From Gammaproteobacteria bacterium (GTDB taxonomy: Bacteria; Pseudomonadota; Gammaproteobacteria; Burkholderiales; Burkholderiaceae_C): a stretch of DNA of 64,000 nt. Below the pieces are notes generated by a model. That model did no database searches. It was not told the DNA's origin and saw only the letters and a program-made list of their open reading frames with translations. The stretch spans positions 1-64,000 of the forward strand of contig JANYHL010000048.1 in NCBI GenBank assembly GCA_025359085.1. Direction: 5' to 3'. Positions 1 to 9,747 of the stretch are shown one piece after another. The position numbers and the translations under genes are program-made. Every line of letters begins with the position of its first letter. The first letter of the stretch is position 1.

Positions 1-299
1 CAAAAGCGCCAAAGAACCCAACACCATGAACACGGTTTTTTTGATAATTCCCACGAATTGCGGCTCCGTCAGTCAGGTTATCGGCGCAGCAGGATCAGAG
101 CGTCGTGTTCGATGTCAGCGGTGGCAGTGAGAAATTCCAGCGCACCTTTGAGACCGAGCTCGGGATCATTCGCGCCGCTTTGACGCAGCGCTTGGCGACG
201 CTGCCTCCACCTGCGCCGATAACCTGACTGACGGAGCCGCAATTCGTGGGAATTATCAAGAAAACCGCATTGATGGTGCTTGGCTCTTTGGCGCTTTTG
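1..299. repeat. Inverted repeat, arms 1-89 and 211-299
   Basis: The reverse complement of 1-89 matches 211-299 at 82 of 89 positions; the 49 bases nearest the 121-bp centre are identical. Each arm carries the end of one gene and the ribosome site, GTG start and first codons of the next. The seven mismatches fall in the coding part; four are silent and three change two residues (V/A, F/L). The left arm therefore looks like a diverged second copy of the 246-809 gene start, read on the minus strand from base 54 and leaving the window. It may be a true inverted duplication or a join between related sequences. Confidence 0.85.
84..227 (+). pseudogene. C-terminal fragment of an unrecognised gene
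   Basis: An open frame ending in TGA at 225-227 gives about 47 residues (starting AQQDQSVVFDVSGGSEKFQR, ending PPPAPIT). It has no start codon: upstream it runs into the left arm of the inverted repeat and meets a stop at 45-47. The 18-base gap to the next gene suggests it was once the preceding member of the same operon and was cut at about base 89. I do not recognise the protein. Confidence 0.45.
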
Positions 300-809
300 C
301 TGGTGTTGGGTTTTGCCGATCCAACTAACGTCCGCTTGATGCCGTCCATCAAGGTGCATTTTACAAATTTGTTGCGGGCACTGGGCGGCGTCGAACTGAA
401 GAACGAGCCCGTTGCAGAAGGGATATACCCCGCGATCATCGAGTTCAACCGCAAGCTGTCGCTGGCCTACCTGGCGCTCAATGCGGCCGCGCTAACAGAT
501 GCGGTGATGGATGACGGTCTGCGGCAAAACTATATTGAAGAGATCAATTTTTTGCAAAAGGACGGCCGGGCGCTGGAGTTGACGGTGCAGAACATACAAA
601 TAAAAAAAGTGAGCAAACTCGACAAGCTGATGCTGAGTGTGGACACGCTTGAATCCGTCAAAGTCAGGTACCTGAAGGTGGCTGACCGCACCGAAATCGT
701 TGCCTCTCCCGTAGCAAGCTATGCGATGAACTATACGCTGGACAAGGCTGCCTCCGGCTGGAAGATTGTGGGCGTGGAGACCAGGAAGCCTGGAAAAGGC
801 AATGAATAG
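246..809 (+). CDS. Unknown membrane-anchored protein at head of cytochrome c cluster
   Basis: The product has 187 residues. A hydrophobic N-terminal segment (about residues 7-22) looks like an uncleaved signal anchor, which would place the rest in the periplasm. The C-terminal half has alternating hydrophobic strands ending in GWKIVGVE, which resembles the last strand of NTF2-like folds; that is inference only. A GTG start at 246 is preceded by GGAG at 233-236. The end overlaps resB by 8 bases, so it is probably translated with it and may serve cytochrome maturation. I cannot name the family. A diverged copy of its start lies inverted at 1-54. Confidence 0.7.
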   Translation: MGIIKKTALMVLGSLALLLVLGFADPTNVRLMPSIKVHFTNLLRALGGVELKNEPVAEGIYPAIIEFNRKLSLAYLALNAAALTDAVMDDGLRQNYIEEINFLQKDGRALELTVQNIQIKKVSKLDKLMLSVDTLESVKVRYLKVADRTEIVASPVASYAMNYTLDKAASGWKIVGVETRKPGKGNE

Positions 810-2148
810 CGGGCAATTGAATCCAGCGCAGTTAGTGACAAAGATATGGGCGCTGGCAGGCTCCAGAAATTTTTCGGTGTTTGTGCTGGTCATGAGCATC
901 AGCTATGTGCTGATTCTCGCGGTATTTGGCTTGCTGGTTGAACCCAAGTGGCTCGACATCCTGTCCGGACTGCTTCCCTTCCAACTGCTGTACGGGCTGT
1001 TTTTTCTAAACCTGGTCCTGATTGGGATCAGGCGGGTGCCTGCTGTGATGCGGCAGTGTCAAAAAACCGGATTACCGCAGGGTAGAGAAGAACTCAACCG
1101 CTTTAACCCAGCAACACCCACCCAGGGTGCCGGCTTCAAGGTGCAGGAATTAACGCACTACCTGAGGCGGCGTGGCTACCAGGTTCAGCTTGACCAGGGC
1201 GCGGGTAACGCTGCCCCGGGCATGCACCCGGCAACGCTTCTTTACGCCAGCAGCGGGCGTTTTTCTCCGCTGGGCAACCTGCTGTTTCACGCCAGCTTTC
1301 TGCTGCTCCTGGCGGGCGCCGTGACGAACGTTTATTACCGGTTTGAAGGGACGACGCTTATTGCCGAAGGCCGTCCATTTAGTGGCGCCAAAGCCGAGTA
1401 CCGGACCATCGGCGGGGCCGCTGGTGCCGCGCTGCCCAAGGTTGATTTTGATGTTGAAACCATCGCCGCCGATTTTTGGGACGGCAGGCTGTTTTTTACC
1501 CGGCTCGAGGCACAAGTTCTGCATCGCGGTGGGCGCGATATTGCAAAATTGAGCAGTGCTGTGCAGGTAGGGAATGCGGCAGTCTCGATCGCCGGTTACG
1601 GTTACGTTCCGAGGTACGAATTGAAAAACAAGGCGGGCCAAACCGTCGATGAGGCTAATGTCATGCTGAATATATTCGCTCCGGGCAGCGAAGACAGTTT
1701 TAAGGTGCGCGGCTATCCACACAAGATATTTGTTTCGTTTTTCCCCGACCATGCGAAAGTGAAAGGGGAAATCGTCAACAAGTCAATGAACCCGGTCAAC
1801 CCGGCTTATTTCGTCCGAGTACTGCGAGGCAGAATTCCGGTTTATACCGGGTTTATCAAGCCGGGAGAGTGGGCGCAGTATGACGGCTTGAGCTTGTCTT
1901 TCCCGTCTTACATCAGGTCGGGGGAATTTCAAATCGTCAGAAATCCGGGTCATCCCTTCATCTGGATCGCCTTCATCTTGATGGGGGTTGGACTAACCTG
2001 GAAATTGCTGTTTTACCGCAAAGAGCTGGTGCTGTGGCAGGACGGCGCGGGCCGCACCTGGCTGGCCGGGCGTTTCGATTATTACCCCAAGCTGCATGCC
2101 CACTGGCTGGCTCGCCTGGCTGAGACATTCAAGGGTGAGACGGCATGA
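802..2148 (+). CDS. resB: ResB-family System II cytochrome c biogenesis protein
   Basis: This is the ResB/Ccs1 partner that, with CcsA/ResC, exports haem and attaches it to apocytochrome c outside the membrane. The 448-residue protein has hydrophobic segments near residues 22-45 and 57-76, a third around 160 (LLFHASFLLLLAGAV), a long soluble domain and a last segment near 388-408, the usual ResB layout. I chose ATG 802 because it overlaps the end of the upstream gene; the frame is open further upstream to 766. The stop overlaps the next ATG (ATGA), so resB and ccsA are coupled. Family assignment is firm, substrate unknown. Confidence 0.85.
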   Translation: MNSGQLNPAQLVTKIWALAGSRNFSVFVLVMSISYVLILAVFGLLVEPKWLDILSGLLPFQLLYGLFFLNLVLIGIRRVPAVMRQCQKTGLPQGREELNRFNPATPTQGAGFKVQELTHYLRRRGYQVQLDQGAGNAAPGMHPATLLYASSGRFSPLGNLLFHASFLLLLAGAVTNVYYRFEGTTLIAEGRPFSGAKAEYRTIGGAAGAALPKVDFDVETIAADFWDGRLFFTRLEAQVLHRGGRDIAKLSSAVQVGNAAVSIAGYGYVPRYELKNKAGQTVDEANVMLNIFAPGSEDSFKVRGYPHKIFVSFFPDHAKVKGEIVNKSMNPVNPAYFVRVLRGRIPVYTGFIKPGEWAQYDGLSLSFPSYIRSGEFQIVRNPGHPFIWIAFILMGVGLTWKLLFYRKELVLWQDGAGRTWLAGRFDYYPKLHAHWLARLAETFKGETA

Positions 2149-2990
2149 CTTTTTTAGAGACCTTGTCCCTTGCGGTGGCCGGTGCGCTTTATTTGGCCGC
2201 CTTTTTCCTGGCGCGAAGCGGGTTGGTGCGCTACGGTTTTTTTGGCCTTGTGGCCGGTCTTGTCTTCCAACTCTCTTCTGTCGCCATGCGGTGGGTGGGG
2301 GTTGGCCATCCGCCGGTTTTTGGCACCTACGAAGCCACCTTGAGCGCAAGTTGGTTTCTGCTGCTGTTTGTCGCGTTTTCTTACCGCTCCGTGCATGGCT
2401 CTTTCCGATTGCTGGTTTTGACTTCTGTGCCGATGGCGTTGCTCCTCCTGCTGTATGGCCTGGCCTTTTTCAACACCGAAAGAATGCCGCTGACGATCTC
2501 GGAGCTGAGCCTGTGGGTTGACTTTCACGCGCTCTTTTCCTGGCTCGCCTTTGCGCCATTTACCCTGGCGTTTTGTCTGTCCGGGTTCTATCTGTGGGCA
2601 AGCCGGAGCGACGCCGCCAGTGCAGGAAAGAAAACCGCGCCGGTCAACACGCAGCCGCAACTGGCCATCATCGATGAACTCGCCTTTCGTTACATCAACT
2701 TCGGTTTTGTCAATCACACGGTCATGTTTGCCCTGGGCAGCTACTATTCTTCGATCCTGTTCGGGACCTGGTGGCGCTGGGACCCGGTGTTTTCGATTTC
2801 GCTGATGGCCTGGCTTATGCTCGGCCTGACTATCCATCTGCGGCTGTTTTTTAACTGGAACGGCCGACGGGCCGCCTGGCTTTTTGTCACCGTTTTTTCG
2901 GTGATCAACTTTTCATATTGGGGAATGGTTTTTCTTACGGCGGGGAGCACATTTCATATCTTTGATGTTGACCTGAAGCTGCAGCATTAA
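2145..2990 (+). CDS. CcsA/ResC-type cytochrome c assembly protein (first copy)
   Basis: This 281-residue polytopic protein of the CcsA/CcmC/CcmF haem-handling family has about eight hydrophobic segments. It carries the tryptophan-rich haem-binding motif as GTWWRWDP (about residues 206-213) and an earlier GHPP motif near residue 54. Conserved histidines flank the WWD loop (VNHTVMF before, TIHLRLFF after). It starts inside the resB stop (ATGA) and would form the haem channel with ResB. It differs clearly from the second CcsA directly downstream, so the two are paralogues with possibly different roles. Confidence 0.85.
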   Translation: MTFLETLSLAVAGALYLAAFFLARSGLVRYGFFGLVAGLVFQLSSVAMRWVGVGHPPVFGTYEATLSASWFLLLFVAFSYRSVHGSFRLLVLTSVPMALLLLLYGLAFFNTERMPLTISELSLWVDFHALFSWLAFAPFTLAFCLSGFYLWASRSDAASAGKKTAPVNTQPQLAIIDELAFRYINFGFVNHTVMFALGSYYSSILFGTWWRWDPVFSISLMAWLMLGLTIHLRLFFNWNGRRAAWLFVTVFSVINFSYWGMVFLTAGSTFHIFDVDLKLQH

Positions 2991-3054
2991 GGCTTTCTTT
3001 AGCAAGACCTTTACCGATCTTGTACATTACCGACTCATTCAAGTTTTTGATTCC

Positions 3055-3882
3055 ATGCTGACTGTACTCTCCGTCCTTTTCTGGCTGACCGCCATTGTCT
3101 ATGCACTCGGTTTCGGTCTGTTCACCGTGGCGCTGGTGTTTCGCAAACCGCGCCCGCTGGAGCTTGCCATTTTGGTCGTGTGGGGCGGCTTCCTCTTGCA
3201 TACTGTGGTGATTGCTGCGCGATGGGCACAGACCGGCCATCCACCCTTTGTTTCCTACTTTGAAGCCATGTCTGCCACGGCCTGGTTCGGCATGCTCAGC
3301 TATCTGGTGCTACAGCAGTGGAAGCCCTTCCTGCGTGCGACCGGAGTAGGGCTGATGCCATTTATCGTGCTGCTGATGGGATGGGCTGGAACGCACCCGA
3401 TCGGCGGAGAATCGCTGCCGGTGAGTCTGCAAAGTTTCTGGCTCTTTGTGCATGCCGGGTTTGCCACGGCGGCGGCGGGTTGTTTCATGTTTGCGGCGGG
3501 CGTGGCGGCCATGCGCCTGTATCAGCAACGCCAAAATGTACTGACGGACCCGGCTTTGGGTATCGAGCCCGGCGACCGCTACGATGAGTTCAACTTCCGA
3601 CTCATGCTGCTGGGTTTTGTATTCTGGGGCATCATGATTGTGTCGGGCGCCGTCTGGGCCGATGCCGCATGGGGGCGCTACTGGGGCTGGGATCCAATTG
3701 AGCTATGGAGCCTCATCAGTTGGCTGGTGTATGTCATCTATCTTCATATTTATACCGTGTGGAAGAAACTGCGTGGCGTCTTTCTGGCCTGGTATTCCAT
3801 CGTGGGAGCGCTTTTTGTTGCGTTTTCGCTCTGGGGAATCCGTTTTCTCTACGATACGGTCCACTCCTACGGAGGCATCTGA
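3055..3882 (+). CDS. ccsA: CcsA/ResC-type cytochrome c assembly protein (second copy)
   Basis: This 275-residue membrane protein has the canonical CcsA signature: GHPP near residue 61 and a WWD-type loop GRYWGWDPIELWSLI near residue 208, followed by a helix with a likely haem-ligand histidine (VYVIYLHIY). This is closer to textbook CcsA than the first copy. A 64-base gap separates it from the first copy and a 3-base gap from the next gene. Two adjacent CcsA-type genes for one ResB is unusual; one may deliver haem to a special cytochrome or a modified haem. Confidence 0.88.
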   Translation: MLTVLSVLFWLTAIVYALGFGLFTVALVFRKPRPLELAILVVWGGFLLHTVVIAARWAQTGHPPFVSYFEAMSATAWFGMLSYLVLQQWKPFLRATGVGLMPFIVLLMGWAGTHPIGGESLPVSLQSFWLFVHAGFATAAAGCFMFAAGVAAMRLYQQRQNVLTDPALGIEPGDRYDEFNFRLMLLGFVFWGIMIVSGAVWADAAWGRYWGWDPIELWSLISWLVYVIYLHIYTVWKKLRGVFLAWYSIVGALFVAFSLWGIRFLYDTVHSYGGI

Positions 3883-3885
3883 GGC

Positions 3886-4923
3886 ATGAACTGGCATTTG
3901 AAGCGCTCGCACTGGGCCATCGCGCTCGTGCTGCTGGCAGCGGTGTTGACCGGATTGGGCATCGCTTATTTCACCCGGACGGTGATGGAGCGCGCCGCCA
4001 CCATGACCGAACCCACCGCGTTCAATCAGCCGCCTGTCTTCATCGGCTTGCAGCCAACGCCGGAACCCGACAAGTTGAGACCTTTCGCGCTGGCGCTGCA
4101 CGAAAGAAAGCTGCTGGTCTCCTACCTGAGTTCGGACCGTGTCGATGAATTCTCCGACAAACTCGTGCACTTGCGCACGCTGCATCTGCTTGACAACGAA
4201 CCGGCATCGATCACCGGTCTGGCTGTGGAGGGCGACCGGATTTATGCCACCGATTTCAAATCGGGCGACTTGCTGTTCGTGGACTACAAGACCGGCAAGC
4301 TGCTGCAGGCGTATGGCTGGCAGCCCGATCAAAAAACGCGCATGAAGGCCTTGGGTGTGGCTTTTTATAAAAACAATTTGTACGTCTCCGATGTGGCCTC
4401 CAGGCAAATGCTGGCGATTGGCGCGCAGGACGAAAAGGATATGACTGCAGAAGGCGAGCTGATTGCCCGTTTTCCGAACGGCGGGGCGGCCGAGTTCGAG
4501 CTCGGTTATCCGACCTCGGCCACGGTCACGCCCGATGGCCGCCTGCTGGTGAGCGATGCCAAGAGCGGCGAAGTGAAGGCCTTTACCTGCAGCGGCAGGT
4601 CGGCGCATCTGTTTGAAAAAGACGGCGCTGCAGCCCTCAAGGCGCCGATGGGCATCGCCCTGGATGACCTTCCATCCCCCGCGCTGCTGGAGAAGAAAGC
4701 CAAGGAATTCACACCGTCCAAGAACCGCGTCAACGACCAGGGGAGGATTCATGTGGTCGATGCGGCGCCGGCAGGAGTCAAAGTGTTCGACTCGCTGGGA
4801 AAATATGTCCTGAGCTATGGAACGGAGCTACGGCAGCCGAACGGCATTGCGATCGATCAAAAGAGAAGGTTGATTTTTATTTCGGATACCGCATTGCATG
4901 CCATTGCGGTTTACAAGTATTGA
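3886..4923 (+). CDS. Membrane-anchored NHL/beta-propeller repeat protein
   Basis: The 345-residue protein has an N-terminal hydrophobic anchor (about residues 9-28) followed by blades of NHL type: segments of the form hydrophobic-DGRLLVSD or GIAIDxxRRLIFISD recur (for example near 208-222 and at the C-terminus PNGIAIDQKRRLIFISDTA). Such propellers are common partners of periplasmic c-type cytochromes and usually act as protein-binding scaffolds. It lies 3 bases after the second ccsA and 3 bases before the next gene. Its ligand cannot be read from sequence. Confidence 0.75.
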   Translation: MNWHLKRSHWAIALVLLAAVLTGLGIAYFTRTVMERAATMTEPTAFNQPPVFIGLQPTPEPDKLRPFALALHERKLLVSYLSSDRVDEFSDKLVHLRTLHLLDNEPASITGLAVEGDRIYATDFKSGDLLFVDYKTGKLLQAYGWQPDQKTRMKALGVAFYKNNLYVSDVASRQMLAIGAQDEKDMTAEGELIARFPNGGAAEFELGYPTSATVTPDGRLLVSDAKSGEVKAFTCSGRSAHLFEKDGAAALKAPMGIALDDLPSPALLEKKAKEFTPSKNRVNDQGRIHVVDAAPAGVKVFDSLGKYVLSYGTELRQPNGIAIDQKRRLIFISDTALHAIAVYKY

Positions 4924-4926
4924 TTT

Positions 4927-5307
4927 ATGGACCATTCCACACTCGCCATTTTCGTCATGTTGAACAACTGGTTCCATGACTTTTCGGTAGCGCTGCTGTT
5001 TTGCAGCCTGCTTTTATTGTGGTTCATCTATCGGAAAACGCAGGAACAACCCGATGCAAGCTGGATTGGGTTTGCGCGGGATCTTGCCAAAAGTTTGAAC
5101 CAGGTGACTCGCGTCTGCTGGGCCCTGCTTATTTTGCTCGGCATCGGTCGTACCCTGTCGTATGAAAAGTTCGAATGGGCAGAGGCGGCCGGCAGCGGGC
5201 AAGTGGCGGCGCTGGTTTTGAAGCATGTTTTGCTGGTGTCGCTGGTGCTAGGCGGGACGGTGATTCAGTTGCGTCTGCGGAAATTTTTTAAGGAGTGCAA
5301 GATTTGA
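4927..5307 (+). CDS. Small membrane protein, unknown
   Basis: The 126-residue protein has three hydrophobic segments (about 17-36, 60-75 and 92-112) and two histidines near the membrane edges (HDFS at 17 and KHVLL near 99) that could in principle bind haem. It lies in the operon between the propeller gene and the radical SAM gene; its TGA overlaps the TTG start of the latter. I do not recognise a named family. The context suggests a membrane partner of the cytochrome or haem pathway. Confidence 0.65.
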   Translation: MDHSTLAIFVMLNNWFHDFSVALLFCSLLLLWFIYRKTQEQPDASWIGFARDLAKSLNQVTRVCWALLILLGIGRTLSYEKFEWAEAAGSGQVAALVLKHVLLVSLVLGGTVIQLRLRKFFKECKI

Positions 5308-6791
5308 AGAACCTGCCCAAAATATTGTTTGTCACCGCACCCTACCATTGCTGGGGCGTTCAGGTGGTGGGCTCGTGGCCGCCATTGCATCTGGTGTATC
5401 TGGCCGGTGCCGTGCGTGGCGCTGGCGTGGAGCCGAAAATCTACGATGCAATGAACAAGTCACACTCGTATGTGGAAATCCGGGCCGAGATAGAACGCTT
5501 CAAACCCGACTACGTGCTGACTTACGACTACCTTCCGGTGACCGGCGCCATCAGCACCGCTGCCATGCCGGATTCAATTGCGATTTTGAAACTGGCCAAG
5601 GAGATCAACCCCGCAATTGTGACCATACTGGGCGGGCCGCACCCCACTTTCTTGCCGGCGGAAGTGTTTGAGTCTGAAAAAGATGCGCTCGACTATATTA
5701 TTCTTGGCGAAGGAGAATTGATATTAAAAGCGCTGTTGTTGGCTTTGCAGGAGGGCACGCCCGGTGCGGTCAAAGAGGTCAAGGGGATTGCCTACCGCGA
5801 GCACGGCAAGACGGTTATCAATGCCAGGCAGGAGCAGATACGCAATCTGGATGAATTGACGCCAGCCTGGGATCTGCTGGAGTGGGAGCTTTACAACTAC
5901 TGGGTTCATCCGGGTGGGAGAATGGCTTCCATATTGACTTCGCGCGGTTGCGAGATGAGCTGTAGTTTTTGCAGTCAACGGCTTTTCTGGCGCGGCAGTT
6001 GGCGCGCCAGGGAGCCGGAAAAGGTGATCGAAGAAATTGTTTTTCTGCATGAAAAACATCAGGTCATGGTGTTTACTCTGATTGATGCTTATCCGACCCG
6101 GGACCGGCACCGCTGGGAACGCCTGCTGGACTTGCTGATTGAAAAAAATCTGCCGATATCACTGCTCATGGAAACGAGGGTCGAAGATATTGTGCGCGAC
6201 CAGGATATCCTGGACAAATACAAGAAAGCCGGGGTCATCCATATCTACATGGGGGCCGAAAGCGGCGATGACGATGTTCTGAACAGCCTGAACAAGGGCA
6301 TTGAGATGAAAACCACCAAGCTTGCGCTTGAGTTGCTGAATAAGGCCGGGATCGTCACGGAAGCGTCTTTCATGGTCGGCTTTCCGGAGGAAACCTGGGA
6401 CTCCGTCAAGAAAACCATTGCGGCGGCAATTTATCTCAACCCTGACGTTGCCGTTTTCCCGATCGTGACGCCCTGGCCTTACACACCGATGTACAAGGAG
6501 ATGAAGGACAGAATCCGGGTTTTTGATTATTCCAAATACAACCTGGTCACACCGATCATCGAACCCTTGCAAATGACGCTGGAAGAGGTGACTCAGGCAT
6601 TGGCAAAATGCTATATGGAGTTTTACAGTCACAAGATGCAGGAAATATTTACCCTTGAAGAAGGCTTCAAAAAAGATTACATGATGAGTGCCATGCGTTT
6701 GATGATGAAGGAGCAATGTTCTGCCTTCAGGATGACGGGCATGAAAATGCCCGATCTGGGCGCTTTTTTCCCGGCGCAAGCGCTAACTTGA
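5304..6791 (+). CDS. BchE-like B12-binding-domain radical SAM enzyme
   Basis: The 495-residue protein has an N-terminal cobalamin-binding-type domain (about 5-150) with SWPPLHLVYLAGAVRGAG and YDAMN, then a radical SAM barrel with C216-x3-C220-x2-C223 for the [4Fe-4S] cluster. Family marks shared with anaerobic Mg-protoporphyrin monomethyl ester cyclase BchE include CSQ..FW after the cluster, TPWPYTPMY and DYSKYNLVTPI near the C-terminus. I chose TTG 5304: AAGGAG at 5290-5295 is 8 bases upstream and TTG overlaps the previous TGA. A GTG at 5295 would sit on the Shine-Dalgarno itself. No bacteriochlorophyll genes are nearby, so the substrate is open; a tetrapyrrole is inference. Confidence 0.85.
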   Translation: MKNLPKILFVTAPYHCWGVQVVGSWPPLHLVYLAGAVRGAGVEPKIYDAMNKSHSYVEIRAEIERFKPDYVLTYDYLPVTGAISTAAMPDSIAILKLAKEINPAIVTILGGPHPTFLPAEVFESEKDALDYIILGEGELILKALLLALQEGTPGAVKEVKGIAYREHGKTVINARQEQIRNLDELTPAWDLLEWELYNYWVHPGGRMASILTSRGCEMSCSFCSQRLFWRGSWRAREPEKVIEEIVFLHEKHQVMVFTLIDAYPTRDRHRWERLLDLLIEKNLPISLLMETRVEDIVRDQDILDKYKKAGVIHIYMGAESGDDDVLNSLNKGIEMKTTKLALELLNKAGIVTEASFMVGFPEETWDSVKKTIAAAIYLNPDVAVFPIVTPWPYTPMYKEMKDRIRVFDYSKYNLVTPIIEPLQMTLEEVTQALAKCYMEFYSHKMQEIFTLEEGFKKDYMMSAMRLMMKEQCSAFRMTGMKMPDLGAFFPAQALT

Positions 6792-6793
6792 CG

Positions 6794-8194
6794 CTACTGC
6801 ATTGCGCTAGGAGTGCTGTCTTGCTGCGACGTTTCAAGGGGTTCGCATTCTTCGAGTTTTCGGTAAAGGCTGGACAATCCGATGCCTAGTTTTTGCGCCG
6901 CGCAACGGCGGTCGCCGTCGGCTTCGCTGATGGCATTGGAAATGACCGACAGCTCGAAGCGGCGTACCTGATCGCGCAGATTTTCACCCGATGCCGACTC
7001 AGTCGGTCGGCTTAACGCCATGCGCGTGATCTGGGAGGGTAAATCGGAGCAGCCAATGTGTCCCTCCTCGGCCAAAATCAGCGCACGATCAATGACATTT
7101 TCCATTTCTCGCACGTTTCCCGGCCAAGCATAAGCACTCAGCATTTCCTCCGCTTCTGGGTCAATGGAGATGTTGTGTTCATCACCTGAGTGTTTTGCGT
7201 TGCGCTGGAGCAGAAAGCGCAGCAGATCGGGGATGTCCTGCCGGTGTTCGCGCAATGGCGGTATATGCACATGGAAAACGGTCAGGCGGAAATACAGGTC
7301 CTGACGAAATTTGCCGTCAACGACCATCTGTTTGAGATCGCGGTTGGTCGCCGCGACAATGCGGACATCGGCATGGCGAAATTGCTCGCTGCCAACCGGG
7401 CGAACCATTTTTTCCTCGATCACATGCAACAGTTTTACCTGCAATTGCAGCGGCAGATCACCGATTTCATCCAGAAAAAGGGTGCCTTTGTCGGCTTCCA
7501 GGAACAGTCCTTTGCGTGCCTTGTCGGCGCCCGTGAAAGAGCCCTTGGTGTGGCCGAATAATTCGCTTTCCATCAGGTTCTCTGGAATGGCGCCGCAATT
7601 GACCGGAATAAAGGGTGCATCGGCGCGCCGACTTTGCTGGTGGATCAGGCGTGCGATCACGCCTTTGCCGGTTCCGCTTTCTCCGGTCACCAGAACCGTG
7701 CTGTCGGTTGGCGCGACCTTGCTGATCAGGCGCTCCACCTGCTGCATGGCGGGCGAACCAAAGCCGAACATGTCTTCCTTTTTGCCCTGAACCAGTCTGC
7801 GCAGCACCCGATTCTCGTCGCGCAGACCGCGCAGATCGCCAACTTTCACCAGCCGGTGCATGATCTCTTCATTGCGCAAGGGCTTGATCATGTAATCAGC
7901 AGCGCCAGCCTGAATTGCTTCAATTGCGGTGTCCACCGACGCATAGGCCGTCATCATGATGAAGTTGGTGTCGATGCCAGCGGCACGGGTGCGTCGTACC
8001 AGTTCGATGCCAGTGATGCCCGGCATCTGGATATCGCAGAGGGCCACATCCACATCGCCTTTGGAGAGCCGCTCGAACGCATCGGTGCCGTTGGCGGCCT
8101 GGCTAACGAAGTGCCCGGCCTTGGTTAAATAGGCGGCCAGTATCTGCCGGATTGCAGGCTCGTCGTCGATGACCAGCACGACCAGTGATTTCAT
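6794..8194 (-). CDS. NtrC-family sigma-54 response regulator
   Basis: The 466-residue protein has a receiver domain at 1-120 (VLVIDDEP, phosphoacceptor Asp in CDIQMPG), an AAA+ domain with Walker A GESGTGKG and the sigma-54 contact loop as GSFTGA (usual form GAFTGA), and a C-terminal Fis-type helix-turn-helix (DGDRRCAAQKLGIGLSSLYRKL). The frame runs upstream to 8317, but ATG 8194 begins the receiver and overlaps the kinase stop (ATGA), so kinase and regulator are coupled. Its stop is 2 bases from the convergent radical SAM stop with no terminator between. The target promoters are unknown. Confidence 0.92.
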   Translation of the reverse strand: MKSLVVLVIDDEPAIRQILAAYLTKAGHFVSQAANGTDAFERLSKGDVDVALCDIQMPGITGIELVRRTRAAGIDTNFIMMTAYASVDTAIEAIQAGAADYMIKPLRNEEIMHRLVKVGDLRGLRDENRVLRRLVQGKKEDMFGFGSPAMQQVERLISKVAPTDSTVLVTGESGTGKGVIARLIHQQSRRADAPFIPVNCGAIPENLMESELFGHTKGSFTGADKARKGLFLEADKGTLFLDEIGDLPLQLQVKLLHVIEEKMVRPVGSEQFRHADVRIVAATNRDLKQMVVDGKFRQDLYFRLTVFHVHIPPLREHRQDIPDLLRFLLQRNAKHSGDEHNISIDPEAEEMLSAYAWPGNVREMENVIDRALILAEEGHIGCSDLPSQITRMALSRPTESASGENLRDQVRRFELSVISNAISEADGDRRCAAQKLGIGLSSLYRKLEECEPLETSQQDSTPSAMQ

Positions 8195-9747
8195 GCAGTA
8201 TTTGCCTCGTTGAAGGCGACCTCGGTCAGAGCGAAAAAGACCTGCACCGAGGTGCCGGTGCCTAGCGTGGAGTCGATGCTGATGGAGCCACCATTTTTCT
8301 GCATGATTGAGTAACACAGCGACAAGCCCAGCCCGGTGCCCTTGCCCACCGGCTTGGTTGTATAAAAGGCCTCGAACGCGCGGCTCAGGGTTTTTTCATT
8401 CATGCCACGCCCATTGTCCTGCACCGTCAGACGCGCGCACTGGGCCTCGGCGTGCGTGGTCAGCGTAATGACCGGAGTGGGATCACTCACGTCTTCCAGT
8501 GCATCCATGGAATTGATCAGAAGATTCATGATGACCTGGGTGAACTGGTCTGCGACCCCGAAAATCGCCGGCAATTGATCGTCAAGCTCGAGTTTGAGCG
8601 CCACGCGGCGCAGACGCTTGTCATACCGAAGCAGGCTGGCGGTGCTGCGCAGTAAGGCATTCAGGTCGAGCAACTGCGGCTCGATGGTCTGATACGCGGC
8701 CAGCGATGAGATTTCACGCGTGATGGCTGCCAGGCGCTGTGTCTGCACCTGAATCAGATCGGGCCGACAAGACTCGCATTCTCCGGGCCCACAGCGGCTG
8801 TCGCGACGTTCGTTCATTTCTTGTGCCAGGCCGGAAATGGCGGCGATTGGATTGCCGATTTCGTGCGCCACACCAGCCGCCAGCGCGCCAATGGCTGCCA
8901 TTTTTTCTTGGTGAAAATATTTTTGACGCTCCAGCATCAACTCTTTTTCGTGCTTGTCGAGCGTGCTCGCCATGCTGTTAACGGCTTTCATCAACTGGCC
9001 GACTTCATCATGGCGCCGGATCGGAAGGGCGTCGCCACGATAGCCTTTGACGATGTCCAGGGCGCGTTTTTGCAAGGAGCCCAAGTCGTTGGTCAAGCGC
9101 CGGAAAAACAGCCATGTAATTGCGCCCAGCGAGGTCAGCCCCAAGACTCCGAAAAACAGCGCTGTCATTGCCACCGAATCACTTTTAGTGTGGTAATTAC
9201 GTGATAGTTGATCTCTGTTTTTTTCTGACTTTTCGGCCAGCCGCGAGATTTCATTCTTGGTTCTTACCAGTTCACGAATCAACTGATCCATATTGCCGCG
9301 GGAGGGGTTCGCGGTGACTTCAGTCAAAGCGGCATTGACCGACTTCAGGCTAAAACTGTACTGGGGCATGCGCGCTGTAAGCTCTTCCTGTTTGTTGACG
9401 AGCCTCTGATGGTACATAAGGATGAATTGCATCCCCGCTTCCCGATCAGTCGCATTGATGTTGGGAATGATTGACATGACCGAGTGAAAAACGGCCATGT
9501 CCACCTGTTTGAGCACGCTATCAATTTCCTGCGATTGCTGGATTTCCTGAAAATCGTGCAGTAACAGGTTTTTTTGATGCAGTGCAAAAACGGCAATCGC
9601 CATGGCATAGATGACCAAGAGGCCAATGACGATCAGGCCTTTGGCTCGAACCGACAGGGCATGACCAGTGATTGCGCTAGCACCAGACATGGCGGGATGG
9701 CCGCCTCCGACATCGGCAGTGCTCGTAAGCATGACAGATCCATCCAT
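8191..9747 (-). CDS. Membrane sensor histidine kinase with Cys motif
   Basis: The 518-residue kinase has TM1 near 37-56, a helical periplasmic sensor of about 130 residues, TM2 near 192-215, then HAMP, HisKA with H295 (AAGVAHEIGNP) and an HATPase domain (NLLINSMDAL, DNGRGM, GTGLGLSLC). Just after the H-box sits C319-x4-C324-x2-C327, which could bind metal or an Fe-S cluster or react with oxidants. ATG 9732 (residue 6) is an alternative start. The pair may regulate the cytochrome cluster it faces; that is inference from position. Confidence 0.9.
   Translation of the reverse strand: MDGSVMLTSTADVGGGHPAMSGASAITGHALSVRAKGLIVIGLLVIYAMAIAVFALHQKNLLLHDFQEIQQSQEIDSVLKQVDMAVFHSVMSIIPNINATDREAGMQFILMYHQRLVNKQEELTARMPQYSFSLKSVNAALTEVTANPSRGNMDQLIRELVRTKNEISRLAEKSEKNRDQLSRNYHTKSDSVAMTALFFGVLGLTSLGAITWLFFRRLTNDLGSLQKRALDIVKGYRGDALPIRRHDEVGQLMKAVNSMASTLDKHEKELMLERQKYFHQEKMAAIGALAAGVAHEIGNPIAAISGLAQEMNERRDSRCGPGECESCRPDLIQVQTQRLAAITREISSLAAYQTIEPQLLDLNALLRSTASLLRYDKRLRRVALKLELDDQLPAIFGVADQFTQVIMNLLINSMDALEDVSDPTPVITLTTHAEAQCARLTVQDNGRGMNEKTLSRAFEAFYTTKPVGKGTGLGLSLCYSIMQKNGGSISIDSTLGTGTSVQVFFALTEVAFNEANTA

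Follow-up and report, generated by a model that had tools for sequence, protein, structure and literature searches.

The start of the window (the whole stretch of DNA analysed, namely the first 64,000 of the 65,066 bases of contig C87, from a host genome of 3.16 Mb that is 97% complete) raises the question of why a B12-binding radical S-adenosylmethionine (SAM) enzyme resembling BchE is encoded inside an operon for cytochrome c maturation. Seven plus-strand open reading frames (ORFs) span 246-6791, with overlaps of 4-13 bases or gaps of 3-64 bases between neighbours (Table 1), and the ResB, two CcsA, propeller and B12 radical SAM genes that a sequence-only reading had listed there are all present, with Pfam families that agree. 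The same reading had proposed that the enzyme tailors a tetrapyrrole or haem-linked substrate for a special c-type cytochrome. With slightly less than even confidence, we favour a related account, in which the enzyme would tailor haem or a haem precursor for dedicated attachment to the cytochromes of a cluster resembling the undecahaem electron transfer (Uet) cluster. The operon itself is best classed as a System II maturation operon that includes a BchE-family enzyme.

At the level of sequence, the enzyme is demonstrably a relative of BchE in the wide sense. Pfam recognises a Radical_SAM domain (2.9e-23) and a B12-binding domain (5.8e-21), and BchE (TIGR02026) is the best of 34 NCBIfam matches, at 381.8 bits over residues 9-475, nearly the full length. 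The BchE-type motifs noticed earlier proved genuine, as CSQ..FW, TPWP and YN(F/L)VTPI, together with CxxxCxxC, align with those of three BchE-grade proteins from within its genus and family, one of which (L089) comes from a genome that also carries BchH. The enzyme thus has in common with BchE its full-length similarity, the B12-binding and radical SAM domains, CxxxCxxC and the C-terminal motifs; unlike BchE, it falls below the curated cut-off, belongs to a clade of its own, lacks the extended C-terminus and comes from a host without detected BchH. It also has an 8-residue insertion in the B12-binding domain, which in the alignment distinguishes its clade (clade A) from BchE and from a further clade, B. 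Among the matches listed, neither the window enzyme nor that of the related locus L120 passes an NCBIfam cut-off. An AlphaFold model of the enzyme from a two-row alignment (window and L003) has a mean predicted local distance difference test (pLDDT) score of 41.

The next best families are HpnR (145.3 bits, cut-off 650) and HpnJ (135.7 bits, cut-off 577.6), both below cut-off. Their rank would suit an enzyme acting on a lipid or quinone of anaerobic electron-transfer membranes, with the neighbourhood reflecting co-regulation only, and so would a prenyl synthase gene near the enzyme and a UbiE-like gene (recognised by eye) in locus L113. We consider this very unlikely, as BchE outscores both families by more than 230 bits, L113 was the only locus where prenyl or quinone genes were noticed, and BchLNB genes accompany the enzyme in locus L116, described below.

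In both trees that we built, the enzyme lies outside any clade of known unrelated function; the placement that would have refuted the earlier proposal did not occur. The main tree holds 76 rows (LG+G4), without the BchE rows L086, L090 and L091 (genus thinned) and without a weaker L054 family member (422 amino acids, score limit); a second tree of 55 rows under a mixture model agrees with it on the placement of the window enzyme and of BchE. Clade A consists of the window enzyme and 32 relatives (100/99), and clade B, with 18 rows (100/100), is nested beside group C, a set delimited by search score that does not form a single clade. Twelve BchE rows form a separate clade (100/100), of which three are annotated on plasmids, two come from genomes with BchH and seven are assigned by similarity only; branching between the large groups is weakly supported (91/52).

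Thirteen aligned relatives are 53-59% identical to the window enzyme, and all come from the class of L003's genome, which we took to be Coriobacteriia. No other member at that level appeared in 369 genomes of the host's class (E <= 1e-130) or in 398 of its phylum (E <= 1e-140), and none in 150 genomes of its family (E <= 1e-60), where five further matches of 36-39% identity were taken as BchE; each of these samples includes the host. Of 89 genomes of the host's genus (E <= 1e-20), one, the host, has the enzyme, and seven others carry BchE-grade proteins (1e-108 to 1e-112). The host is probably a Rhodoferax or closely related to that genus. A plasmid search with the enzyme gave 11 matches at 28-37% identity, the annotated ones being named BchE or Mg-protoporphyrin ester cyclase.

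In Actinomycetota, some of these relatives share the neighbourhood, and the lack of conservation that would have refuted the earlier proposal was not seen. We surveyed 32 of the 33 clade-A matches (excluding G651, whose contig is 3.3 kb long, and an incomplete copy in G151), together with 18 of 24 in clade B and all 10 in group C. Partners were counted up to 8 kb from the enzyme; out of 16 kb of flank possible, 12-14 kb was present on average, some stretches were short, and L116, which holds two enzymes, is counted twice. Gene content, gene order and their recurrence can be stated plainly. ResB and CcsA accompany the enzyme in 14/32 clade-A loci, 7/10 group-C loci and 0/18 clade-B loci, and Fisher tests for this link, which ignore kinship, give 0.0007 for A versus B and 0.0001 for C versus B. 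A cytochrome with at least five CxxCH motifs lies nearby in 15/32, 5/10 and 5/18 loci of A, C and B, the small membrane protein of the window operon in 5/32, 2/10 and 0/18, and proteins like the window's NHL propeller in 0/32, 2/10 and 0/18.

Ten of the 14 linked clade-A cases belong to one 12-row subclade with a single convergent arrangement (L003 type), and the independent weight for the link comes from arrangements that differ. These are L067, which is co-directional with a giant cytochrome ORF of 68 CxxCH upstream; L062 and L069, with a further ResB/CcsA-enzyme arrangement; L056, convergent like L003 and outside the 12-row subclade; L120, with resB, ccsA, the small membrane protein and the radical SAM gene on one strand; L115 and L119, which read NHL-NHL-cytochrome-resB-ccsA-radical SAM; and the window. 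Chance, with the gene hitch-hiking on a transferred cytochrome cluster and playing no role in it, would account for the patchy distribution and for the 18 of 32 clade-A loci found elsewhere. It is a highly improbable explanation, given the same partners in several arrangements and distant hosts, the 13-base overlap of the enzyme gene with the preceding small membrane protein gene in the window, and the clade-B loci, none of which has ResB/CcsA.

The recurrent link with cytochrome genes would also be expected if the enzyme modified a polypeptide or another partner from the cluster (a cytochrome precursor, p1 or the propeller), for example by C-methylation or cross-linking, reactions that several B12 radical SAM proteins carry out, and the available parts of two sources describe B12 radical SAM enzymes as predominantly methylation-linked (PMC13142503, PMC13331322). 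We find this unlikely, because families of the ribosomally synthesised and post-translationally modified peptide (RiPP) type score far below BchE (the best, ApyD, reaches 113.9 bits) and no conserved small peptide was noticed beside the enzyme among the mapped ORFs, which are of at least 70 amino acids.

Other features of the related loci were seen in the same survey. Giant cytochrome ORFs of more than 3,700 amino acids, with 68 and 75 CxxCH, adjoin ResB/CcsA at L159/L160 (G604:C40) and L161 (G572:C41), the latter with masked stretches. Many of the 18 clade-B loci (L077-L085, L122-L130) adjoin a protein of 367-390 amino acids that by eye resembles a PilT-type ATPase, and the clade-A enzymes of L051 and L054 have a different context, beside ParA/Mrp-like ATPases and small NifX-like proteins (also by eye). 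L113 carries two more B12 radical SAM genes (1132-2853 and 6969-8399) near its prenyl synthase gene, one of them a strong TIGR04190 member (641.5 bits, cut-off 500). According to the available part of PMC9686372, one Coriobacteriia isolate from the OPB41 lineage has 18 multihaem cytochromes and a second has 17, and some of them group with genes for cytochrome c biogenesis; the words radical SAM are absent from the main text of that paper.

A pointer to the substrate comes from L116 (G1505:C99, actinobacterial), where the order cytochrome-ResB-CcsA-BchL-BchN-BchB runs convergent with the enzyme gene. BchLNB (L116:7106-10632) share the strand of CcsA; BchL starts 32 bases after CcsA, BchL and BchN overlap by 13 bases, and BchN and BchB are 27 bases apart. 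As in dark-operative protochlorophyllide reductase (DPOR), all three subunits are there, N exceeds one curated cut-off (400.7 bits against 324, with 392 against 420 for a second model), a PCP_red domain is present and N and B both have DPOR subunits as their top PDB sequence matches; the Cys and Asp positions that we take to be the DPOR cluster ligands look conserved in the PDB alignments. Unlike in DPOR, L (334 bits, cut-off 345) and B (461.7 bits, cut-off 490) fall slightly below their cut-offs, and the set lies behind CcsA in a genome without detected BchH. The position of BchLNB between CcsA and the enzyme in such a genome points to a tetrapyrrole.

BchH was found in 0/17 enzyme-bearing genomes tested, host and G1505 included, a count in which gaps in incomplete assemblies are possible, and in both of the two tested genus members that carry BchE-grade proteins (G862 and G895); a third genome of the genus, without such a protein, was negative. 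The earlier remark that no bacteriochlorophyll genes are present extends to the whole host genome for BchH and BchN, the two that were sought.

These results also bear on haem supply, in which the enzyme would perform an oxygen-independent step of ordinary haem synthesis or salvage that feeds haem-rich cytochromes and leaves the final haem unaltered. Such a role would fit a BchE-like enzyme adjoining haem export and ligation genes in cytochrome-rich genomes, and many clade-A copies and all 18 examined clade-B copies lie away from ResB/CcsA, as a housekeeping step would. It leaves unexplained both BchLNB in L116 and the presence of the enzyme in a single genome of the host's genus, and we judge it unlikely.

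The cytochromes that the operon might serve appear to be encoded upstream. The operon had been taken to start at 246, and this boundary must be moved, as 93-227 reads as the C-terminal part of a further ResB (ResB'), the body of which is on another contig of this genome, C133 (20,232 bases; L152:49-1527, minus strand). Window 100-177 corresponds to C133 99-176 and window 179-259 to C133 17-97, both reverse complemented, with 78/78 and 81/81 bases identical and one mismatch between them. From this overlap we infer that C133 joins the window at the second ResB. Counting haems as CxxCH motifs, C133 encodes, in order towards the window, an 8-haem cytochrome, TPR proteins, a mono-haem cytochrome, a 4-haem cytochrome and shorter 2-haem ORFs, then a peptidyl-prolyl isomerase, a 677-amino-acid protein without a family match, four tri-haem proteins and two NHL-type proteins, and finally a 10-haem cytochrome of 714 amino acids followed by ResB'. 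At L152:12042-13852 (G000:C133), where the 4-haem ORF is followed by the shorter 2-haem ORFs, a stop lies inside two matches, and a second copy may thus be broken here by the assembly or in it.

The Uet complex of Tenderiales and Gallionella is described, in the available part of its source, as made of tetrahaem, trihaem and undecahaem cytochromes, an isomerase, NHL units and a porin (PMC10734462), and the published cluster reads uetABCDEFGHIJ in the part available of another (PMC12575090). C133 resembles it in its 10-haem, 4-haem and tri-haem cytochromes, its isomerase and its two NHL-type genes. As to the porin UetC, the 677-amino-acid protein of no matched family lies between the isomerase and tri-haem genes; in the large cytochrome, 10 CxxCH were counted, and the comparison is with the published parts list. 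ResB/CcsA and the radical SAM gene, present in the window, are outside the Uet gene lists as far as these sources give them. Given how nearly the C133 genes match the published composition, the maturation half of a Uet-like electron-transfer cluster is probably what the window contains, and the bacterium probably moves electrons through its cell surface. A single special c-type cytochrome, as first envisaged, is too narrow a target, since the operon seems to be part of a whole such cluster.

Under the account that we favour, the operon would be the cytochrome-maturation half of this extracellular electron-transfer cluster. ResB' and ResB, with CcsA2 and CcsA1, would carry haem across the inner membrane and attach it to exported apo-cytochromes encoded upstream, with p1 and the NHL propeller probably assisting on its outer side. 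The BchE-like enzyme would act before export, in the cytoplasm, oxidising or otherwise remodelling the rim of haem or of a haem precursor, in parallel to the action of BchE on Mg-protoporphyrin ester. The small membrane protein, with its HD, R and KH residues, may bind or hand over the altered tetrapyrrole, and the altered haem would reach the cytochromes of the cluster through the dedicated, partly variant ResB/CcsA set, with the host Ccm system serving others. BchE-type chemistry would leave free the vinyl groups, which are used for thioether bonds. Haem as the substrate, the reaction, the order of steps and the activity of every protein are what we infer from sequence. A bolder version, possible but doubtful, is that the BchE-family enzyme builds a new c-type haem, an iron chlorophyll-like or rim-modified tetrapyrrole that ResB/CcsA would attach to extracellular multihaem cytochromes; one lineage would then add a protochlorophyllide-reductase-like complex to the enzyme.

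Several observations weigh against haem tailoring. ResB/CcsA are missing within 8 kb in 18/32 clade-A, 3/10 group-C and 18/18 clade-B loci, and the nesting of clade B beside group C means that the link was lost or gained within the family. The enzyme stays below the curated BchE cut-off (381.8 against 481.35 bits) and has no close kin, branching singly at the base of clade A. DPOR-type BchN occurs in only 1 of 46 enzyme-bearing genomes (G1505), two others giving weak matches, and the CcsA proteins of 13 of the 14 linked clade-A loci show only a near-canonical tryptophan motif. The cytochromes of the cluster were recognised by ordinary CxxCH motifs, and the altered haem is argued from gene context. 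The proposal of a tetrapyrrole or haem-linked substrate is upheld in part: the recurrence of ResB/CcsA and BchLNB in L116 speak for it, and the copies away from ResB/CcsA, over half of those in clade A and all of those examined in clade B, speak against it.

The ResB/CcsA set is recognisably System II, in that ResB and both CcsA proteins exceed the Pfam cut-offs, both CcsA keep the four His and CcsA2 has the canonical tryptophan motif. It differs from System II in having apparently two ResB and two CcsA, one with a variant motif, in adding p1, the propeller, the small membrane protein and the BchE-like enzyme, and in a host that has a System I gene besides. Neither CcsA reaches the cut-off of the NCBIfam CcsB equivalog (93.1 and 145.4 bits against 187.6 for TIGR03144). 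The motif of CcsA1 departs from the canonical one as in the CcsA of L120 and partly as in the second CcsA of L056; the remaining 21 of the 24 rows come close to the canonical motif. Every one of the 24 retains the four His; these counts leave out a weak relative on host contig C113, which keeps one of the four. Co-occurrence of tandem CcsA with the enzyme had been suggested as a check, and tandem CcsA is not conserved, as 18 of 20 related ResB/CcsA loci have a single CcsA within the stretch fetched; the window's second CcsA may belong with the second ResB. Against plasmids, CcsA1 gave seven distant matches, the annotated ones being cytochrome biogenesis proteins.

In the available part of its source, a System I parallel is a dedicated CcmF beside the giant cytochromes of anaerobic methanotrophic (ANME) archaea (PMC9012536). 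Host contig C120 encodes a CcmF/NrfE-type protein over the TIGR00353 cut-off and, just before it, a further Cytochrom_C_asm gene whose position suggests CcmC. As the host has this System I gene, the System II set of the window is extra. A MtrABC set on host contig C75 passes all three cut-offs.

The first gene product, p1 (187 amino acids), has no Pfam match at E <= 0.01, apart from which a weak match to an ARC6-like IMS domain stays below cut-off. It probably belongs to a recurring NTF2-like family found in 13 related loci (14 proteins) beside ResB or CcsA, on a match that is significant but modest (family profile E 1.1e-8 in a single-sequence search; hhalign E 6.5e-5, probability 64). For the small membrane protein, every Pfam score stays below cut-off, with CopD (PF05425) at 19.4 bits against a gathering cut-off of 32.1, and plasmids gave 0 matches. 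A profile search found it near the enzyme in seven loci besides the window, about 1.3 kb away in L113 and elsewhere adjoining the enzyme or between the enzyme and CcsA. Nine positions are invariant in eight rows, among them N14, H17, D18, R75, K99 and H100. HemJ was considered for this His/Arg/Lys pattern, which is a HemJ feature, and is not claimed, as Pfam gave no HemJ match at E <= 10.

The haem of c-type cytochromes is generally assumed to be haem c, derived from haem b, and a recurring link of BchE and DPOR to cytochrome ligation, if true, would make that generality testable. The pairing of the enzyme with haem attachment in other bacteria suggests that some cytochromes may carry a chemically altered haem. 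Such a haem would offer a way to tune potentials in cytochrome wires and would bear on the origin of chlorophyll synthesis from haem synthesis; if the haem were a new one, chlorophyll-type chemistry would exist outside phototrophy, as a part of cytochrome maturation. Whatever the substrate, these B12 radical SAM enzymes make up a sizeable group, some members of which have specific partners. The literature searched contained no paper joining BchE with ResB or multihaem cytochromes, and the available parts of PMC3543383, PMC5972617 and PMC13386937 contain nothing counter to haem tailoring.

Table 1. Features at the start of the window, in base positions
Feature	Position	Strand	Evidence
Inverted, diverged copy of nearby sequence at contig end	1..92	none	41-89 is the exact reverse complement of 211-259; match then continues imperfectly; disagrees with C133
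C-terminal end of second ResB (ResB')	93..227	+	44-residue frame equals the end of C133 ResB except 2 residues
p1, membrane-anchored, probably NTF2-like family	246..809	+	Family-profile match, E 1.1e-8
ResB, System II	802..2148	+	PF05140 93.7 bits, gathering cut-off 24.6, E 1.5e-26
CcsA1, cytochrome c synthase subunit that handles haem, variant tryptophan motif	2145..2990	+	PF01578 (Cytochrom_C_asm) 77.1 bits, E 1.9e-21
CcsA2, canonical tryptophan motif	3055..3882	+	PF01578 (Cytochrom_C_asm) 116 bits, E 2.3e-33
Anchored NHL beta-propeller	3886..4923	+	PF01436 42.6 bits, cut-off 20, E 4.6e-11
Small membrane protein, 126 amino acids, unnamed family with invariant N..HD, G..R, KH	4927..5307	+	Profile search, alignment
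BchE-like B12-binding radical SAM enzyme, clade A	5295..6791	+	TIGR02026 381.8 bits, CxxxCxxC, BchE motifs, trees

The start of ResB was read from the sequence as the ATG at 802, the ORF list giving an upstream TTG at 766 as an alternative. The next listed gene-sized ORF after the operon is on the minus strand (6794-8317). Ribosomal protein genes, identified by eye in the ORF list, lie further along C87, so that, barring a chimeric contig, the operon is this bacterium's own. Positions 1-92 are probably an assembly artefact; taken with the overlap with C133, this inverted copy suggests variants among strains or a fold-back in the assembly.

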